Shown: piece by piece, positions 45,805 through 58,862 of the stretch
Numbering within the stretch: the stretch's first letter is position 1
Layout: each line of letters begins with the position of its first letter
Origin: Bacteroidales bacterium CF
Lineage (GTDB): Bacteria > Bacteroidota > Bacteroidia > Bacteroidales > UBA932
Direction of reading: 5' to 3'
DNA length: 64,000 nt
NCBI GenBank assembly: GCA_000473305.1
Contig: CP006772.1
Span: forward strand, 2,108,001-2,172,000
Notes under the pieces: generated by a model
The model's input: the letters and a program-made list of their open reading frames with translations, nothing else
Told to the model about the DNA's origin: nothing
Database searches by the model: none
Position numbers and translations under genes: made by a program

Positions 45805-46878
45805 TTATCTTGTTATTGCGAAAAACCTTGGCAAGGTCTCTTCCGTTGAGAAAGACAGAGTAAATTGCCACTCTAAAGATTGAAGCTTAACTTTCAGGTC
45901 TTTTATATTCTGTATTAAATCTTCGAAAGTTGGTTTATGCTCTTCGTATATCATATCTTCCATCATTTTAGCATAATCATATTCCCATTCGCCGATTATC
46001 TCAGAGGGGGGCATAGGGTCAAGCGTTATTGGATTATGACTGTTATAATTTACACCACCAACGTGGTTAAATTTGCTCCTGTGTGCCACAATTGTTTCAT
46101 ATAAATCCTTATCCTTAATGGCTCTGTCAGCTATTCCAGATCTTTCCAGATAATAAATGTCGTACAAATGTCGGCTTAATCTGTCAACCCTTCGTTTATC
46201 TACTGGTCGATGAAACTCTTCGTGTAGAAGAAATAATTTTTCCAAAAAAGTACGCTCTGCATTAACAGTTGGAATTGAGAATAATGGCTCAGCAAAATTC
46301 TTATCAATGTATACTTCATCGACTAAGGACCCAAATGTTATCATTGAACAAGGTTCATGCAACGCTCTGCAACCGATTTCAACCTGCACTCGAGGCAACA
46401 TATACTCTGAAGGCTTAGCTATGACATTTGGATAGAAAATTTCTATAATGCGTGGATCCTGATCGCTGTCCTTTACTTCAACAATACTAAATTTTAGGTC
46501 TTTGACTCCCCTTGCTTCGAATCCCACTTTCAAATTATCGAAAAATTCCCCCGCAACATAGACTCCTGCCTGCTTCCTTACATTTGTTATCTCCTTTTTT
46601 GACCATTCCTTTTGAGGCTTTAGAAAGAACTCCTTGTCAATAGCCAAATCAATATCTTCCGAAAACCGATGTATTAACTTCCATGCTTTGCTCAGAGAAG
46701 TGCCACCCTTAAAAACCATATGTTTGGCAATTTCCATTTGAAAAATGACTTCGAGCGTTCTACTCACCCACCAGTCTTTCTCTACTGCAAAGGAGCTCAT
46801 CCCCTTTGCTGCGGCAATAGCTTGAAAAATGGCTATTTTCTCTTCTTTATCGATATTATAGAAATTAATTTTCTCCAT
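45805..46878 (-). CDS. AbiEii/AbiGii nucleotidyltransferase toxin (pair 1)
   Basis: 357 aa. The nucleotidyltransferase signature GGTSLSKAW followed by RFSEDIDLAI (GS/GG-x-S ... DxD) and later RVQVEIGCRAL match AbiEii-type toxins of type IV toxin-antitoxin or abortive-infection systems, thought to modify tRNA or another host RNA. Its start overlaps the antitoxin-like gene by 14 nt. Bounded by same-direction family-A copies A2 (3' side) and A3. Its 3' end is duplicated at 48853-48888. Confidence 0.9.
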   Translation of the reverse strand: MEKINFYNIDKEEKIAIFQAIAAAKGMSSFAVEKDWWVSRTLEVIFQMEIAKHMVFKGGTSLSKAWKLIHRFSEDIDLAIDKEFFLKPQKEWSKKEITNVRKQAGVYVAGEFFDNLKVGFEARGVKDLKFSIVEVKDSDQDPRIIEIFYPNVIAKPSEYMLPRVQVEIGCRALHEPCSMITFGSLVDEVYIDKNFAEPLFSIPTVNAERTFLEKLFLLHEEFHRPVDKRRVDRLSRHLYDIYYLERSGIADRAIKDKDLYETIVAHRSKFNHVGGVNYNSHNPITLDPMPPSEIIGEWEYDYAKMMEDMIYEEHKPTFEDLIQNIKDLKVKLQSLEWQFTLSFSTEETLPRFFAITR

Positions 46879-47470
46879 ATCCCAACGCCTTTTTCATTAT
46901 TTTTTGTATCCAAACAGGTGCCAGTGCGATATCATGCTTTAAATCACTTTTTTCTTCTCTTTTCAGTAAGTCTATGATCTTTTTTTCCTCTTCTTCACTC
47001 ATTTTTCCATTACCAATTTCCTTAAGCGCCTGTATAACCAGACGGCTTATTTTTCCTTTTGCCAACAGGTTTTTAGGAGTGGTTTTCTTAAGCTTAATTT
47101 TTCTTTTTCCTACTTTAATCTCTCGTGGCGAGCCATCGGTAAGTAAAACTATATTCACCGGGACTTGTGTGCTTAATCCCAAAGAATTCAATGCATAGCT
47201 TCCGGTTGGAAGAGTTCTTATCCGGTCCCTTTTAGCAATGGCTTCGGCTACTTCCTCTGCTGATGGAATAAGGACACCAATGAGACTACTTTCTTTTGGG
47301 CGTACATAAATACCCTGAGCGATTCTGGTTATAATCCCTTCTTTCTCTAGCCTGAATAATGATAGTCGCACTGCCTCCGAAGATCCAAACTCACTAAAAT
47401 CCGCAGGAAATAATAACTCCCCTTTAGGAAGTGATTCAATATGTTTTAATATTTGGTCTTCTATACTCAT
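46865..47470 (-). CDS. DUF6088/AbiEi-like antitoxin (pair 1)
   Basis: 201 aa. N-terminal winged HTH (SIEDQILKHIESLPKGELLF, GSSEAVRLSLFRLEKEGIITRIAQGIYVRP) followed by an AbiEi-like domain (TGSYALNSLGLSTQVPVNIVLLTDGSPREIKVGKR split by loops). It would repress the operon and counter the AbiEii toxin encoded downstream with a 14-nt overlap. Type IV antitoxins of this sort do not need to bind the toxin. Confidence 0.87.
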   Translation of the reverse strand: MSIEDQILKHIESLPKGELLFPADFSEFGSSEAVRLSLFRLEKEGIITRIAQGIYVRPKESSLIGVLIPSAEEVAEAIAKRDRIRTLPTGSYALNSLGLSTQVPVNIVLLTDGSPREIKVGKRKIKLKKTTPKNLLAKGKISRLVIQALKEIGNGKMSEEEEKKIIDLLKREEKSDLKHDIALAPVWIQKIMKKALGYGEN

Positions 47471-48892: not shown

Positions 48893-48981
48893 AATAAAAA
48901 AGCCCCCGTTAAGGACGAGGGCAACCTAAATGTTTTCACAACGGAATAATCCTTATTGTGATTTGCTTTCAAAATTTGAAG
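48893..48981 (-). ncRNA. tracrRNA
   Basis: Minus-strand RNA. A 22-nt stretch (48956-48977) is a perfect complement to the crRNA side of the CRISPR repeat (TTGTGATTTGCTTTCAAAAT plus TT on the plus strand). It is followed by AAGGATTATTCCGTTGTGAA (nexus-like hairpin) and a terminator GCCCTCGT / ACGGGGGC with T-run. A TATATTCG just upstream of the 5' end is a weak -7 element. Ends defined by eye. Lies between repeat A4 and cas9, antisense to cas9. Confidence 0.87.
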
Positions 48982-49085
48982 CGAATATATCAAATTTTTT
49001 GGAAGAAAAATAATATTTTAAAAATATTTGGAAATGTGCATTATATTTAGTTGATTTGGAGTACATTAATCATTACTAAAAATAC

Positions 49086-52000
49086 ATGAAACGCGTTTTA
49101 GGCTTAGATCTAGGGACAAACTCTATTGGTTGGGCATTGATAGAGCAAGACTGTGATGCTAAACAAAGCAATATTCTGGGAATGGGAAGCCGGATAATTC
49201 CAATGTCGCAGGACATATTGGGAGAATTCGGAAAGGGTAACTCTGTTTCACAAACTTCAGAAAGAACTGCTTATAGAAGCACTCGACGCCTTCGAGAAAG
49301 ATTTTTATTGAGAAGAGAGCGGTTACATAGAGTATTAAACATTCTGGACTTTTTACCTACGCACTATGCTTCACAGATAGATTTTAAAAAAAGATTGGGT
49401 AAATTCAAGGAGAATAAGGAGCCTAAAATTGCATATGATAACAAATCTTTCTTGTTTCTAGACTCTTTTAATGAGATGCTCAAAGATTTTGAACAAGAGC
49501 AACCTAATATGCTTATTAATGAAAAAGGAGAGAAAAAGCTTATCCCATATGATTGGACTCTGTATTACTTACGTAAAAAAGCGCTTAGAGAAAAAATATC
49601 AAAAGAAGAGCTTTCCTGGATTATTCTAAACTTCAATCAGAAGCGAGGCTATTACCAATTACGGGGAGAAGATGAAGAGGAAAATCCAAGTAAACTTGTT
49701 GAGTTTCATTCCCTAACAGTTGTTGATGTGGTCCCTGACGAGCCCATAAAAGGCAAACTAGAGACTTGGTACTCAATCATATTAGATAATGGGTGGGTGT
49801 ACAGGAGGTCCAGTAAAACAGAATTATACGATTGGAAAGACAAAATAAAGGAATTTATTGTCACAACTGATCTCAATTATGATGGAACAGTCAAAACCGA
49901 CAAAGAAGGTAATGTAAAACGAAGCTTTCGTGCCCCAAGTGAAACAGACTGGACTCTAATCAAAAAGAAAACCGAATATGAGATCGAACAATCTTCAAAA
50001 ACAATAGGTGAGTATATCTATAATACACTACTCAAGTATCCCGAACAAAAAATCAGAGGCAAACTAATTCGTACAATTGAAAGAAAATATTACAAAGAAG
50101 AATTAAAGCAAATACTTCTTAAGCAGACCGAATTTCACAATGAACTAAAAGACGACTCACTTTATTATGACTGTTTAAGAGAGTTGTATAGAAACAATGA
50201 GTCACATCAACTCTTCTTAGAAAAAAAGAATTTTGCCCAGTTATTCATTGAGGACATCATCTTTTACCAACGTCCTCTTAGAAGCCAAAAATCTTTAATC
50301 AGTAATTGCCCTTTGGAATTTTATAAATTCAAAGATTCTGTTGGCAACGAGAAAGTTCAACATTTAAAGGCTATTCCAAAATCCAATCCATTTTACCAAG
50401 AGTTTCGTATTTGGCAATGGATATCAAATCTATCCATATATAGTAAACTCGATGACAGCAACTTTACCTCACACTTTTTTGACAGCACAGACGACTGGGA
50501 AAGTTTGTTTGAAATGCTAAATGGAAGAAAAGAGATTGAGCAAAAACAACTGCTTAAGTTTCTCTTGGAAAAGAAAGGGTTTAAAGGCAAATCTCTTTCC
50601 TCAGAAATTGAAAAGTATCGTTGGAATTATGTTGAAGACAAAAAATATCCGTGTAATGAAACTCGCTCTTTAATACAATCACGACTAGATAAAGTAGCCA
50701 ATTTACCTGAATCATTTTTGACAAGGCATGTTGAACAAGAATTATGGCATCTGATATACTCCGTTACAGACAAGATTGAATTTGAAAAAGCATTAGATAC
50801 TTTCTCTAAAAAATATAAGATAGACACACCTACATTTGTTGATGCTTTTAAAAAGTGTCCCCCATTTAAAAGTGAATATGGCTCATTTTCAGAAAAAGCA
50901 ATAAAGAAACTATTGCCTCTAATGAGAACTGGGAAATATTGGGATTTGGACAATATTGACAAGGCAACTAAACAAAGAATTGAAAAGATAATTTCTGGTG
51001 AATACGATAAAGATATTAGAGATCGAGTAAGAGAGAAAGCAATCAATTTATTATCTGAAACAGATTTTAACAGGCTACAACTATGGCTTGCTCAATACAT
51101 TGTATACGACCGCCATTCTGAAGCAACCTCACTGGACAAATGGGAGACAATTGATGACATCGTCACTTATTTACACTCTTTCAAACAACACTCGTTAAGA
51201 AACCCAATAGTTGAACAGGTTATCACAGAGACTATAAGGGTAGTTAAAGATATTTGGTCTAATTACGGCAATGGATCTAAAGACTACTTCAATGAAATTC
51301 ATGTTGAATTAGGCCGAGAGATGAAGTTACCTGCTGAAGAGAGAAAGAGGATTCAGGAAAAAAACAGTCAAAACGAAGACACCAATCTCCGCATTAAGGC
51401 ATTGTTGTCAGAGATGCAAAACGATCCAAATGTAGAAAATGTGCGCCCATACTCTCCTGTACAGCAAGAAATTCTAAAAATTTACGAAGAGGGTGTGTTA
51501 AATTCAAATATTGAAATTGCTGATGATATATTGAAAATTAGCAAAACAGCACAACCATCATCCTCAGATTTGAAGCGTTACAAGTTATGGCTTGAGCAAA
51601 AATATCAATCACCATATACTGGAGAGATTATCCCTTTGAATAAGCTTTTTACCCCTGAATATGAAATCGAACATATTATTCCTCAAAGTAGGTATTTTGA
51701 TGATAGCTATAACAACAAAGTAATTTGTGAATCGGCTGTAAACAAACTTAAAGACAACAGCCTTGGATATGAATTTATTAAGGGATACAATGGCCAGATA
51801 GTAGAATGTGGGTTTGGGAAAAAAGTCAAGATTTTTAGCATAGATGAATATGAAGACTTTGTTCAGAAAAATTATGCCAACAATCGTAGTAAAGCCAGCA
51901 GACTGATGATGGCCGATATACCTGAAAAGATGATTGAACGCCAACTTAACGACACAAGATACATAAGCAAGTACATCTCCAATATACTATCAAATATTGT

Positions 52001-53432
52001 TCGATCGGAGTCAAATGACGATGGCGTCAATTCAAAGAATCTAATATCGGTAAATGGTAAAATCACAACTGTATTAAAAAAAGACTGGGGGATGAATGAT
52101 ATATGGAATGATTTGATTTTACCACGTTTTATCAGAATGAATCAAATCACAGATTCAGATTCATTTACAACTTGGAATGAAAGATTCCAAAAGTTTATTC
52201 CGACTGTCCCTATTGAGCTATCAAAAAACTTCTCTGCAAAAAGAATAGACCATCGTCATCACGCAATGGATGCTTTAGTAATAGCTTGCGCTACCCGAGA
52301 CCACGTGAATTTGCTGAACAATTTATACGCAAAGTCTTCAGCCAGATATGATTTAAATAGGAAACTGAGAATTTTTGAAAAGACTACATATAAAGATATT
52401 AAAACAGGACAAATAATTGAGAGGGAGATTCCCAAAGCATTTTTAAAACCTTGGCAAAACTTTACAACCGACGCCAAAGATGCTATTGAATCAATAATCG
52501 TTAGCTACAAACAGAGCCTTCGCGTAATCAATAAATCAACAAATTATTACCAAAAATGGGTTGAAAAAGACGGAATTGTTAAAAAAGAGAAAATTAAACA
52601 AGAGGGGAAAAATTGGGCAATAAGGAAACCTTTGCATAAAGACACTGTTTCAGGATTAGTTCAACTGTCCTGGGTAAAAGTCCCAAAAGGAAAGGTAATG
52701 ACCGCCACTCGAAAAAGTTTAGATTCATCTTTTGACTTAAAGACAATTGCCACAATAACTGACACCGGAATACAGAAAATATTGATAAAATATCTTGAAA
52801 GTAAAGGCAACAACCCGGAAAGCGCATTTTCACCTGAGGGTATAGAGGATTTTAACAATAACATCCATTTATACAATGATGGCAAGAAACATCGTCCAAT
52901 TACAAAAGTACGCCTTTATGAAATAGGCAGTAAATTCCCTCTAGGAGAAAAAGGCAATAAAAATGCGAAGTATGTTGAAGCAGCAAAAGGCACCAACCTA
53001 TTTTTTGCTGTTTATGCAAACAACAAAGGTGAACGCAGTTTTGAAACTATCCCACTCAATTTAGTTATAGACAGGTTAAAACTAGGGCTAAGTGCTGTCC
53101 CTGAAACAAATGAAAAGGGAGACAATCTTCTTTTCCATCTCTCACCCAACGATTTAGTTTATGTTCCTTCTGAAGATGAAATGGAGAATCTTAAACTTAT
53201 TAATTTAGAGCACATATCAAAAGACCAACTTAACCGTATTTACAAAATGGTAAGTTCTACAAGTAATAGGTGCTTCTTTATTAAAAGTGAAATTGCTTTA
53301 TCAATAGTGAATAAGATAGAATATTCTCCACTTAATAAAATGGAGAAGAGCATCGAAGGTATTATGATTAAGGATGTGTGTTTAAAACTACAAGTTAACA
53401 GAATAGGTAATTTAGAAAGGTACTTCTCTTAA
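49086..53432 (+). CDS. cas9: Cas9 endonuclease, type II-C
   Basis: 1448 aa RNA-guided DNA nuclease. RuvC-I is VLGLDLGTNSIGWAL (Asp8), the Arg-rich bridge helix is YRSTRRLRERFLLRRERLHR, RuvC-II is IHVELGREM (Glu741), HNH is YEIEHIIPQSRYFDDSYNNK (His863), and RuvC-III is DHRHHAMDALVIA (His1058-1059, Asp1062). All catalytic residues are present, so it should be active. Size suits the large Bacteroidota II-C branch. The cas9-cas1-cas2 order with no csn2 or cas4 defines II-C. Start ATG at 49086; tracrRNA lies divergently upstream. Confidence 0.98.
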   Translation: MKRVLGLDLGTNSIGWALIEQDCDAKQSNILGMGSRIIPMSQDILGEFGKGNSVSQTSERTAYRSTRRLRERFLLRRERLHRVLNILDFLPTHYASQIDFKKRLGKFKENKEPKIAYDNKSFLFLDSFNEMLKDFEQEQPNMLINEKGEKKLIPYDWTLYYLRKKALREKISKEELSWIILNFNQKRGYYQLRGEDEEENPSKLVEFHSLTVVDVVPDEPIKGKLETWYSIILDNGWVYRRSSKTELYDWKDKIKEFIVTTDLNYDGTVKTDKEGNVKRSFRAPSETDWTLIKKKTEYEIEQSSKTIGEYIYNTLLKYPEQKIRGKLIRTIERKYYKEELKQILLKQTEFHNELKDDSLYYDCLRELYRNNESHQLFLEKKNFAQLFIEDIIFYQRPLRSQKSLISNCPLEFYKFKDSVGNEKVQHLKAIPKSNPFYQEFRIWQWISNLSIYSKLDDSNFTSHFFDSTDDWESLFEMLNGRKEIEQKQLLKFLLEKKGFKGKSLSSEIEKYRWNYVEDKKYPCNETRSLIQSRLDKVANLPESFLTRHVEQELWHLIYSVTDKIEFEKALDTFSKKYKIDTPTFVDAFKKCPPFKSEYGSFSEKAIKKLLPLMRTGKYWDLDNIDKATKQRIEKIISGEYDKDIRDRVREKAINLLSETDFNRLQLWLAQYIVYDRHSEATSLDKWETIDDIVTYLHSFKQHSLRNPIVEQVITETIRVVKDIWSNYGNGSKDYFNEIHVELGREMKLPAEERKRIQEKNSQNEDTNLRIKALLSEMQNDPNVENVRPYSPVQQEILKIYEEGVLNSNIEIADDILKISKTAQPSSSDLKRYKLWLEQKYQSPYTGEIIPLNKLFTPEYEIEHIIPQSRYFDDSYNNKVICESAVNKLKDNSLGYEFIKGYNGQIVECGFGKKVKIFSIDEYEDFVQKNYANNRSKASRLMMADIPEKMIERQLNDTRYISKYISNILSNIVRSESNDDGVNSKNLISVNGKITTVLKKDWGMNDIWNDLILPRFIRMNQITDSDSFTTWNERFQKFIPTVPIELSKNFSAKRIDHRHHAMDALVIACATRDHVNLLNNLYAKSSARYDLNRKLRIFEKTTYKDIKTGQIIEREIPKAFLKPWQNFTTDAKDAIESIIVSYKQSLRVINKSTNYYQKWVEKDGIVKKEKIKQEGKNWAIRKPLHKDTVSGLVQLSWVKVPKGKVMTATRKSLDSSFDLKTIATITDTGIQKILIKYLESKGNNPESAFSPEGIEDFNNNIHLYNDGKKHRPITKVRLYEIGSKFPLGEKGNKNAKYVEAAKGTNLFFAVYANNKGERSFETIPLNLVIDRLKLGLSAVPETNEKGDNLLFHLSPNDLVYVPSEDEMENLKLINLEHISKDQLNRIYKMVSSTSNRCFFIKSEIALSIVNKIEYSPLNKMEKSIEGIMIKDVCLKLQVNRIGNLERYFS

Positions 53433-53458: not shown

Positions 53459-54708
<1,250 letters not shown>

Positions 54709-54766
54709 CAATATGTAGCTATATCAACAGAGCAATCGATGAGAACTTAAATGTTTCTACAAATAA

Positions 54767-54792
54767 AAAACCCACTATAAAAGTGGGTTTTA
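54767..54792 (+). terminator. terminator after cas2
   Basis: AAAACCCACT / AGTGGGTTTT hairpin with T-rich tail, 58 nt past the cas2 stop; it can also end transcripts leaving the array on the minus strand. Confidence 0.85.
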
Positions 54793-54868
54793 TATACAAA
54801 AATAGCAAATTTATTTTATCCAACACACCTTGTCAACCATCTGTATTTAAGCTCATTCAGAGCATCCT
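54793..54868. other. candidate leader-like flank of the CRISPR array
   Basis: AT-rich 76 nt between the cas2 terminator and the first repeat. This side carries the uniform, younger repeat variant, so new spacers are probably inserted here. Confidence 0.55.
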
Positions 54869-57140
54869 ACTGTTTCTGATATGTCAAAGATAAAATTTTG
54901 AAAGCAAATCACAACTTTACAAGGCGAATAAATAAATGAGATTTAACTGTTTCTGATATGTCAAAGATAAAATTTTGAAAGCAAATCACAACTAGGCTGG
55001 TACTTCAATCTCGGTATGTTTACTGTTTCTGATATGTCAAAGATAAAATTTTGAAAGCAAATCACAACATGATTTCTACATAGTCTGGATTTGATTGCAC
55101 TGTTTCTGATATGTCAAAGATAAAATTTTGAAAGCAAATCACAACTCGATTTCTTCATATTGCGAAAGTAACTCCACTGTTTCTGATATGTCAAAGATAA
55201 AATTTTGAAAGCAAATCACAACACCTCTTCCGCTATTTGTATCTGGCTTTCACTGTTTCTGATATGTCAAAGATAAAATTTTGAAAGCAAATCACAACAC
55301 AGGGGTTCGAGTCCCCTCACCTCCACGACTGTTTCTGATATGTCAAAGATAAAATTTTGAAAGCAAATCACAACGGTAACATCCCCGTAGCAACAAAAGA
55401 GTTTACTGTTTCTGATATGTCAAAGATAAAATTTTGAAAGCAAATCACAACTACATATCAGAAGTATATGCTTCTTTCCGACTGTTTCTGATATGTCAAA
55501 GATAAAATTTTGAAAGCAAATCACAACAGCCCCCTGAAGATAATCATTGAACCTGTACTGTTTCTGATATGTCAAAGATAAAATTTTGAAAGCAAATCAC
55601 AACTTCTGATCAAGGGTTGTGAAGATGTATTCAACTGTTTCTGATATGTCAAAGATAAAATTTTGAAAGCAAATCACAACGGAATATGTGCAGGAAAGTA
55701 GAAGTAACAAACTGTTTCTGATATGTCAAAGATAAAATTTTGAAAGCAAATCACAACAGAAACCTTTGAATATGAAGCCTATGAGCAACTGTTTCTGATA
55801 TGTCAAAGATAAAATTTTGAAAGCAAATCACAACTCTCAATTCTCAGAGACTCGTCAGGGGATTACTGTTTCTGATATGTCAAAGATAAAATTTTGAAAG
55901 CAAATCACAACTAAACACACAATAAGGAGTACAAACGGAGTACTGTTTCTGATATGTCAAAGATAAAATTTTGAAAGCAAATCACAACAGGGTCTGCATA
56001 ATACTCCTGTACTGAAAACTGTTTCTGATATGTCAAAGATAAAATTTTGAAAGCAAATCACAACTGTATTACCTAGCGATACTTTGAAGTTATCACTGTT
56101 TCTGATATGTCAAAGATAAAATTTTGAAAGCAAATCACAACAATTTTAAACAAATATAGTAATTAATTCTACTGTTTCTGATATGTCAAAGATAAAATTT
56201 TGAAAGCAAATCACAACACTTTATTACTTTTCTCTTGACTATCGTAGACTGTTTCTGATATGTCAAAGATAAAATTTTGAAAGCAAATCACAACATGTCT
56301 GTTGTTTTCATATCGGTAAAATTACTGTTTCTGATATGTCAAAGATAAAATTTTGAAAGCAAATCACAACAGGAGACCCGTATTGTGGTGCTGAGAGCGA
56401 ACTGTTTCTGATATGTCAAAGATAAAATTTTGAAAGCAAATCACAACAGGGTCGCTTCATTCACCCCGTTACAATATACTGTTTCTGATATGTCAAAGAT
56501 AAAATTTTGAAAGCAAATCACAACGTAAGATTATTATCGTAAAAAAAGATATTTGCTGTTTCTGATATGTCAAAGATAAAATTTTGAAAGCAAATCACAA
56601 CGCATAAAATATTTTGAAATAAGTAAATCAAGCTGTTTCTGATATGTCAAAGATAAAATTTTGAAAGCAAATCACAACTAAAGATATCCAGCCCTGACGT
56701 TGTTCCTCGCTGTTTCTGATATGTCAAAGATAAAATTTTGAAAGCAAATCACAACTAGTAACCGCAATGGTTGTAAGGGACTGGGGCTGTTTCTGATATG
56801 TCAAAGATAAAATTTTGAAAGCAAATCACAACGATGTGTGGAACGGAGTAAAAGACGATTGTGCTGTTTCTGATATGTCAAAGATAAAATTTTGAAAGCA
56901 AATCACAACTTAGGGACAGAGTGGTACATAGCCACAACAGCTGTTTCTGATATGTCAAAGATAAAATTTTGAAAGCAAATCACAACCGGAAAACCAAGAT
57001 TGAAACTACCTGATTCGCTGTTTCTGATATGTCAAAGATAAAATTTTGAAAGCAAATCACAACCAAGGTCTCTGACGTGTTCTTTTTCAAGAAGCTGTTT
57101 CTGATATGTCAAAGATAAAATTTTGAAAACGAATCACAAC
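54869..57140 (-). CRISPR. type II-C CRISPR array, 30 repeats of 47 bp, 29 spacers
   Basis: Counted directly: 30 repeats of 47 nt with spacers of 29-30 nt. In the crRNA direction (minus strand, by complementarity to the tracrRNA) the repeat begins GTTGTGATTTGC, contains TATCTTTG at 24-31 and ends AGAAACAGT or AGAAACAGC. On the plus strand the first 22 repeats (from 54869 to 56478) start with A and the last eight (56555 to 57094) with G. The repeat at 57094 has two further substitutions (GAAAACGAATC for GAAAGCAAATC) and marks the old end. Spacer 6 (55299-55327) looks like a tRNA 3' part. Confidence 0.98.
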
Positions 57141-57323: not shown

Positions 57324-57496
57324 TCTGAATCTGTCAAGAGGAGAAGGGGGCGTTGGGGGCGGGGCGAGAGGTTGCGCCGACAGCATTTATTAGCAAAATG
57401 CGTCTGTTTGAGCCAAAGGCGAGTCAGCATTTTGATTAGAAATGCTTAGGCAAGCAACAGCCCCGCCGCCACTGCACCGCGAACCCCTTGACAGAT
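57324..57496. repeat. repeat family C, copy C1
   Basis: 173 nt, nearly identical to C2 without gaps. Begins TCTGAATCTGTCAAG and ends CCCCTTGACAGAT; contains GCATTTATTAGCAAAATGC-type hairpins and the arms GGCGGGGC / GCCCCGCC. Confidence 0.9.
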
Positions 57497-57523
57497 ATTT
57501 TATGTGGTAGTAATTATTTTTAT

Positions 57524-57570
57524 TACATTTGTGAACTGATATTAGGACTTTTTCCTATTTTCAGTTTACA
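57524..57570 (+). promoter_or_regulatory. AbiE pair 2 promoter and operator-like hairpin
   Basis: TACATTTG (57524-57531) fits TAnnTTTG. It runs into the inverted repeat TGAACTGATATTAGGA / TCCTATTTTCAGTTTACA, which ends just before the AbiEi start codon. AbiEi-type antitoxins repress by binding such repeats. The same hairpin recurs at 59042. Confidence 0.65.
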
Positions 57571-57571
57571 T

Positions 57572-58141
57572 ATGACGAAAAACGATTTCATATTAGAGAT
57601 TTATAAAGATGACCGAACTGTCTTTAGATTGTCTGATATTGCAATGCTTTTCTCGCAAGAGGACATTATTTTTCTAAGCGATCGTTTAAATTATTATGTG
57701 CACACCAACAAAATATTAAATCCCCGGAAAGGCATTTATGCCAAGTCGGGATATAATCCGCTGGAGCTTGCTAATATCCTTTACACCCCTTCCTATATCT
57801 CTTTAGAATATGTATTACAACGGTCCGGAATTGTTTTTCAATATGACTCAAGTTACACAAGCATAAGTTATCTTTCCCGAAGTATCGGGATAAATGGGAA
57901 AACATATAGTTATCGAAGAATTAAGGAGGAGATTATAATGGATACGACAGGAATAATCCGGGATCAAAATATAAATATTGCCATTCCTGAAAGGGCATTT
58001 CTTGACATTCTCTATCTTAATAAGGATTTCTATGTCGATAATATTAATCCTCTTGACAAACAGTTGATAGAAAACATACTGCCAATTTACAAATCAGTTG
58101 CGTTAGAAAAAAGGGTTGCTAATCTCATACAAAATGGTTGA
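57572..58141 (+). CDS. AbiEi-like antitoxin (pair 2)
   Basis: 189 aa. Start at 57572 directly after the operator-like hairpin; an upstream ATG at 57488 would lie inside repeat C1. The N-terminal winged HTH ends in NKILNPRKGIYAKSG, followed by LANILYTPSYISLEYVLQRSG and IPERAFLDILYL, as in AbiEi antitoxins of type IV systems. Overlaps the toxin gene by 8 nt. Confidence 0.88.
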   Translation: MTKNDFILEIYKDDRTVFRLSDIAMLFSQEDIIFLSDRLNYYVHTNKILNPRKGIYAKSGYNPLELANILYTPSYISLEYVLQRSGIVFQYDSSYTSISYLSRSIGINGKTYSYRRIKEEIIMDTTGIIRDQNINIAIPERAFLDILYLNKDFYVDNINPLDKQLIENILPIYKSVALEKRVANLIQNG

Positions 58142-58862
58142 CATTAATAAGCATAAGTTTTTCCTTTTTAAAATCCTGAAGGATATATACGAGGATAAAG
58201 AGCTGGCCGGCATCCTTGGGTTCAAGGGTGGCACGGCTTTGATGTTTTTTTATAATCTCCCGCGGTTTTCAGTAGACCTTGATTTCAATCTGTTAAAGAC
58301 AGAGAAAGAGGAGATGGTATATGAGAAAGTAAAAGGCATAATACAGAAGCATGGGACAATTCATAATGAAGCAAAAAAATTTTACGGGATTATCTGTGTT
58401 TTAGATTATGGTATAGGTGAGAGGAAATTGAAGGTTGAAATTTCAAATCGCAATTACAATGATGTTTACGAAATTAAAAATCTATTGGGAATAAATATGC
58501 AAGTTATGACCACACCGTATATGTTCTCTCACAAACTCTGTGCATTGCTTGATCGTACCGCGATCACAAACAGAGATATATTTGACTGTTGGTTTTTCAT
58601 GAACAATAAGACCGCGTTGAATCAAGAAATCATAGAGACACGAATGAAGATGCCTCTTTCTGATTATCTTCAAAAATGTATTGATATGTTAGAAGGAATG
58701 AGTGATAAGGGAATTTTGAATGGTCTCGGCGAACTGATGGATGATGATATGAAAAGGTTTGTACGAACAAAATTGAGATTAGAAACTATAACTCTTCTAA
58801 AGTTCTATAAGGAATATCCTATATTGTGTAGCACAGATTTTTCTGAATCTGTCAAGGGGTGA
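58134..58862 (+). CDS. AbiEii nucleotidyltransferase toxin (pair 2)
   Basis: 242 aa. GFKGGTALMFFYNLPRFSVDLDF is the nucleotidyltransferase core (split motif GGTAL and DLDF), with KVEISNRNYND and YMFSHKLCALLDR after it. Start at ATG 58134, overlapping the antitoxin by 8 nt. The last residues, CSTDFSESVKG, are encoded by a degenerate B-type arm followed by the first 21 nt of repeat C2, so the C-terminus was probably rewritten by repeats. Confidence 0.88.
   Translation: MVDINKHKFFLFKILKDIYEDKELAGILGFKGGTALMFFYNLPRFSVDLDFNLLKTEKEEMVYEKVKGIIQKHGTIHNEAKKFYGIICVLDYGIGERKLKVEISNRNYNDVYEIKNLLGINMQVMTTPYMFSHKLCALLDRTAITNRDIFDCWFFMNNKTALNQEIIETRMKMPLSDYLQKCIDMLEGMSDKGILNGLGELMDDDMKRFVRTKLRLETITLLKFYKEYPILCSTDFSESVKG

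Follow-up and report, generated by a model that had tools for sequence, protein, structure and literature searches.

A candidate Bacteroidota-type promoter box within the repeats of a type II-C CRISPR array from Bacteroidales bacterium CF and its relatives

In the CRISPR locus described here, every repeat very probably contains a promoter from which the housekeeping sigma factor directs crRNA transcription, with the -7 box TATCTTTG as its essential element; this reading is drawn from sequence comparison. The distribution of the -7 half in repeats and upstream of genes gives good support to its role in a promoter, while the -33 half is not independently supported. The principle is known elsewhere; what appears to differ here is the signal, which is written in the Bacteroidota code and found in many relatives.

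The locus and its array

The window (the whole stretch of 64,000 nucleotides that was analysed) carries a type II-C CRISPR-Cas locus, with cas9, cas1 and cas2 followed by the array:

48893..48977, minus strand: predicted tracrRNA (about 85 nt) finishing in a terminator hairpin; start and end are both predicted
48956..48977, minus strand: antirepeat, pairing with repeat positions 2-23 and stopping before TATCTTTG
48982..48989, minus strand: -7-like box TATATTCG of the tracrRNA gene, a 5/6 match, 4 nt before the antirepeat
49086..53432, plus strand: cas9, 1448 aa (TIGR01865, E 3e-120)
53459..54376, plus strand: cas1, type II (TIGR03639, E 4e-91)
54376..54708, plus strand: cas2 (TIGR01573)
54766..54795, no strand assigned: terminator-like, apparently bidirectional hairpin in the gap between cas2 and the array, in the predicted path of the crRNA transcripts
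54869..57140, minus strand (crRNA strand): CRISPR array, 30 repeats of 47 nt, spacers of about 29-30 nt
54885..54892, minus strand: -7 box TATCTTTG of the leader-proximal repeat, repeat positions 24-31
54912..54914, minus strand: TTG of the leader-proximal repeat, candidate -33 element, repeat positions 2-4, also inside the antirepeat duplex
57094..57140, minus strand: leader-distal terminal repeat, the first in crRNA direction

The gene content is that of type II-C, a cas9-cas1-cas2 operon with csn2 and cas4 absent, and the interval from cas9 to the array contains no gene beyond cas1 and cas2. The tracrRNA region also corresponds to this type, with an antirepeat complementary to the repeat and hairpins that include a terminator. 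Gene pairs resembling AbiE-type toxin-antitoxin systems flank the locus at 45805-47470 and 57488-58862; a family match, a weak one, was obtained for one antitoxin only.

The crRNA strand is the minus strand, opposite to the cas genes, and the minus-strand repeat consensus is GTTGTGATTTGCTTTCAAAATTTTATCTTTGACATATCAGAAACAGT. This orientation is supported by the antirepeat, which pairs in that direction, by an Rfam CRISPR-DR49 match on the minus strand and by the cas2-distal location of the degenerate terminal repeat. Protospacers were sought to confirm the strand via the PAM, and the array gave no match in the phage database; four spacers (the three newest and a tRNA-like one) had no exact match among viral contigs. 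The tRNA-like spacer, GGGGTTCGAGTCCCCTCACCTCCAC at 55299-55327, is identical to the 3'-terminal part of a tRNA including the T-arm and has no second copy in the genome.

All 30 minus-strand repeats contain TTG at positions 2-4 and TATCTTTG at 24-31 with 19 nt between them, exactly as the initial annotation had it; the last copy of the box is at 57110-57117. The terminal repeat has two changes in its pairing half (positions 10 and 12), with TTG and TATCTTTG intact. A scan of the window for TTG-N19-TAnnTTTG gives 32 matches, where chance would give 1.3 (maximum 6); 30 of these matches are the repeats, the degenerate terminal one among them. Since the 30 copies descend from one duplicated repeat and amount to one observation, meaningful statistics have to come from distinct repeats of other genomes.

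Under the preferred reading, the Bacteroidota housekeeping sigma factor would read a promoter within each repeat. Start mapping in Flavobacterium (PMC9723704) places the -7 box at -12 to -5; transposed to the window repeat, this puts the predicted start near position 36, not near 38 as had been estimated earlier, and TTG at -34 to -32. With the box at 24-31 of a 47-nt repeat, the start would still be within the repeat and precede the spacer by about 12 nt. Transcripts would head toward cas2, through the spacer and the next repeat, so that downstream of each spacer there would be a repeat able to pair with the tracrRNA through its first 23 nt. They may continue to the hairpin before cas2, as the units have no visible internal terminator. 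Three zones would thus make up the repeat: positions 1-23 are the pairing half, 24-31 the promoter box and 36-47 a short segment that is transcribed.

The -7 box in repeats and upstream of genes

Cas9 loci were gathered from 80 named contigs and two sets of about 400 genomes each, and their repeats were extracted; the main set comprises 82 distinct II-C repeats of 44-49 nt from the class Bacteroidia. For the null distribution, the part of each repeat after position 17 was shuffled in 2000 runs. TAnnTTTG is present 18-20 nt after TTG in 28 of the 82 repeats, compared with 0.23 in the shuffles (maximum 3), and a match of at least 5/6 at this distance in 53 (null 3.4, maximum 12). Collapsing the set at 85% identity leaves 17 of 48 repeats with TAnnTTTG at 18-20 nt (null 0.11). 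The box pattern was found once in antisense among the 82. Box starts are most frequent at repeat positions 23-25 and form another, lower peak at 31-32; the repeats of Phocaeicola massiliensis and Prevotella nigrescens have the box at 24-31.

Mapped on a Cas9 tree (FastTree, 115 sequences), the box turns up repeatedly in lineages that are deep and separate and whose repeats otherwise differ in the 3' half, and a perfect box at the place corresponding to 24-31 undergoes at least 16 state changes. Across this deep tree, the box positions of the long II-C repeats are conserved whereas positions 31-42 are nearly random. Variation among internal copies of an array points the same way by a small difference only, with 30 changes in 24561 after-box positions versus 5 in 10692 of the box core.

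The feature is not uniform. About one third of the long repeats fall below 5/6 at 18-20 nt, and the distance from TTG to the box is 20-23 nt in Chryseobacterium and others, with TATCTTCG or TATCTTAG at 20-21 nt in Chryseobacterium repeats; a possible second register is seen in some repeats. Repeats of 36 nt of the Flavobacterium columnare type (GTTGTGG...GATATT) are without the box, so it is not a phylum-wide feature; together with the weakly matching third and the spacing shifts, they contradict the suggestion that it is general in the phylum. Some 36-nt repeats of another type have a near match at 23-24, such as TACCTTTC in Persicobacter.

Repeats without a box at 23-25 often carry a -7-like box at 31-39 (consensus positions), of which loci L034, L059, L199, L207 and L011 are examples. 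Positions 9-11 hold another conserved TTG, 19-20 nt ahead of this box, as in TTG-N19-TATATTTG of L034, and the two together are a possible second promoter register. In four F. columnare-type 36-nt repeats (L149, L154, L163 and L219), the terminal GATATT is located 19 nt after a TTTG at 8-11 and could represent a different type of promoter element.

The promoter statistics rest on the collected loci and one pattern search of the genome. In the regions upstream of 1172 genes from the collected loci, with arrays masked, the pattern TTG-Nk-TAnnTTTG was counted for k from 10 to 30; it peaks at k = 19 (32 occurrences) and 20 (30), every other k giving 15 or fewer. The 19-nt spacing of the window repeat therefore falls on the optimum of the gene-upstream spacing. 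Among -7 endings, TTTG is the most enriched upstream of genes (81 versus 10.4 in shuffles). The endings TTTA, TTAG and TTCG, common in flavobacterial repeats, are only mildly enriched in promoters, making those repeats weaker cases. In the search of the genome, the promoter pattern matched 164 times, both strands counted, and the reversed pattern 34 times. TATCTTTG, present in 30 of 30 copies, conforms to the sigma-A -7 signal of Bacteroidota, TAnnTTTG, which is itself enriched upstream of genes.

The box is also specific. TAnnTTTG occurs on neither strand in any of 30 distinct repeats from Bacteroidia cas1 loci without Cas9. The II-C repeats of Pasteurella, Ilyobacter and Subdoligranulum start with GTTGT and end with TACAAT or TATAAT, without the Bacteroidota box; TTG at 2-4, being part of a start shared with other phyla, is therefore no Bacteroidota signature, whereas the box is. 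One Bacteroidia assembly contains, on G470 contig 28, a Neisseria-like II-C system (L119) with a repeat ending GGCTACAAT, and the same assembly also holds a Bacteroidota-type system (L211); the former is possibly contamination.

The TTG half, the tracrRNA and competing explanations

That each repeat carries a complete Bacteroidota promoter, as first proposed, is supported for the -7 box by its enrichment, its specificity, its position mostly outside the duplex and the lack of an enriched external -7 box. It is not supported in the same way for the -33 half, for which the occurrence of GTTGT elsewhere, the pairing with the antirepeat and the losses in terminal repeats all count against. In a stricter form of the repeat-promoter reading, which we regard as somewhat less likely than not, the promoter would be a full -33/-7 one, with TTG at 2-4 under selection for its own part as the -33 element. 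TTG is found in essentially all long Bacteroidia II-C repeats, and its distance of 18-20 nt from the box agrees with that of genomic promoters having TTG; it is at the right distance for a -33 element, but this is confounded with pairing, as it lies within the antirepeat duplex. Elements at -33 and -7 were found in Bacteroides thetaiotaomicron, unlike in F. johnsoniae, where no -33 motif was identified (PMC7366714); the same paper is the source for laboratory B. thetaiotaomicron reportedly lacking a CRISPR system.

Degenerate terminal repeats, the first in crRNA direction, were considered as a natural test of selection on the two promoter halves. In 41 arrays, TTG is lost in 33 terminal repeats, and the six defining letters of the box show four changes, one of which gives a better box; mutations number 281 in positions 1-17 and 37 in positions 18-47. 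The clustering resembled selection on the promoter half, but this test was downgraded, because 15 terminal repeats of non-Cas9 arrays likewise decay from the outer end. Box retention is accordingly weak evidence, and the loss of TTG, being part of a generic decay, is no proof that TTG is dispensable. The loss does remove evidence for TTG being selected as a -33 element, and pairing together with use by Cas9 can account for its being conserved. TTG at 2-4 occupies the place expected of a -33 element and may help the promoter.

A different constraint could maintain the box: it might be recognised by Cas1-Cas2, by Cas9 or by an enzyme that processes RNA, or it might pair with the tracrRNA. Repeats are under several constraints simultaneously, and some antirepeats extend to repeat position 26-29. 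Across loci, antirepeats end at repeat positions 15-29 with a median of about 23, the value found in the window, so the TTTG part of the box is usually outside the duplex; these end positions mostly exclude tracrRNA pairing as the cause of box conservation. The tracrRNA genes, moreover, have the same box outside any repeat: a perfect -7 box of their own lies just upstream of the antirepeat in 30 of 69 (null 0.9, maximum 4), most often at a distance of 4 nt. Judged by the position of TATATTCG, the tracrRNA in the window would start at 48977, which is also where pairing with the repeat ends. The endings of tracrRNA boxes and repeat boxes show no significant correlation across loci (p = 0.10). 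Given also that the motif equals the phylum -7 consensus at a spacing enriched upstream of genes, and that II-C repeats of other phyla have a different box, we consider such a constraint a very unlikely cause.

A single external promoter, with the transcript cut by RNase III, is the usual arrangement in type II-A systems, and TATCTTTG would then be a chance or inherited trait of AT-rich repeats. A leader promoter has been proposed for Riemerella anatipestifer, where repeats were found to be without promoters (PMC5006608); the repeat of its congener R. columbina, however, contains TATCTTTG. If repeats do carry their own promoters, the search in Riemerella may have missed the signal because the Bacteroidota code was not looked for. 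TAnnTTTG is not enriched within 150 nt upstream of arrays in crRNA direction (7 of 69, null 6.3), is directed into the array from the leader side in 2 of 84 and is absent from the 260 nt checked beside the array in the window. An external promoter of the -7 type was therefore rejected, none being enriched on either side of the arrays. As the shuffle nulls also argue against a chance box, which is kept while flanking positions randomise over the deep Cas9 tree and is absent from other CRISPR types of the class, we consider an external promoter very unlikely.

The repeat-embedded promoter, which remains the preferred reading, allows a further step. Bacteroidota II-C repeats could be compound elements, one and the same segment serving both as the spacer region of a sigma-A promoter and for pairing with the tracrRNA; we put this forward tentatively, with the doubts slightly prevailing. 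Some lineages would then use the second register (TTG at 9-11, box at 31-39), the -7 box of the tracrRNA gene would set the start at the end of the duplex, so that the signals for both RNAs meet there, and old and new spacers would be expressed independently of the leader.

Relation to known systems and implications

Repeat-embedded promoters are established in Neisseria II-C systems (N. meningitidis, Zhang et al. 2013, as cited in later papers) and have been proposed in others; Clostridium cellulolyticum is a similar case (PMC7038990). The array in the window resembles both at the level of sequence, in having a host-type promoter signal in each repeat, with transcription opposite to the cas genes and one start per spacer as predictions. 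In Neisseria and C. cellulolyticum, the final nine nucleotides of a 36-nt repeat make up an extended -10 element, whereas the box at 24-31 ends 16 nt before the end of the 47-nt window repeat. Primary transcripts would therefore begin with about 12 nt of repeat, which is not so in Neisseria.

Within the phylum, a repeat-encoded promoter with TTG as -33 element has already been proposed. For F. columnare, the repeat TTG was assigned this role and transcription was reported toward the leader, from eight reads only (PMC8092290); RNA-seq of F. psychrophilum, to which the same -33 idea was applied, has both halves of an array split by an insertion sequence transcribed (PMC10309648). These papers name TTG alone in the repeat, while the window repeat also has TAnnTTTG, and F. 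columnare repeats are of 36 nt, the GTTGTGG...GATATT type lacking TAnnTTTG, versus 47 nt in the window. The closest likeness is BfragL47 of Bacteroides fragilis (PMC9367070), also of 47 nt, with TATCTTTG at 24-31, 19 nt after TTG, and the same pairing half; the B. fragilis repeat mentioned in the initial annotation is thus real. It differs in its 3' end, and a promoter is not discussed in that paper. Our literature search, which covered few subscription journals and preprints, found no paper naming TAnnTTTG within repeats.

The -7 box before the antirepeat predicts tracrRNA starts in Bacteroidia II-C loci. If the repeat-embedded promoter is real, many long-repeat Cas9 arrays of Bacteroidota, including those of gut Bacteroides, Phocaeicola and Prevotella, would express each spacer from its own promoter, regardless of its distance to the leader. 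This would provide a rule for reading the crRNA strand and start site from sequence, and would change both the relation between spacer age and immunity and the use of native arrays for genome editing.
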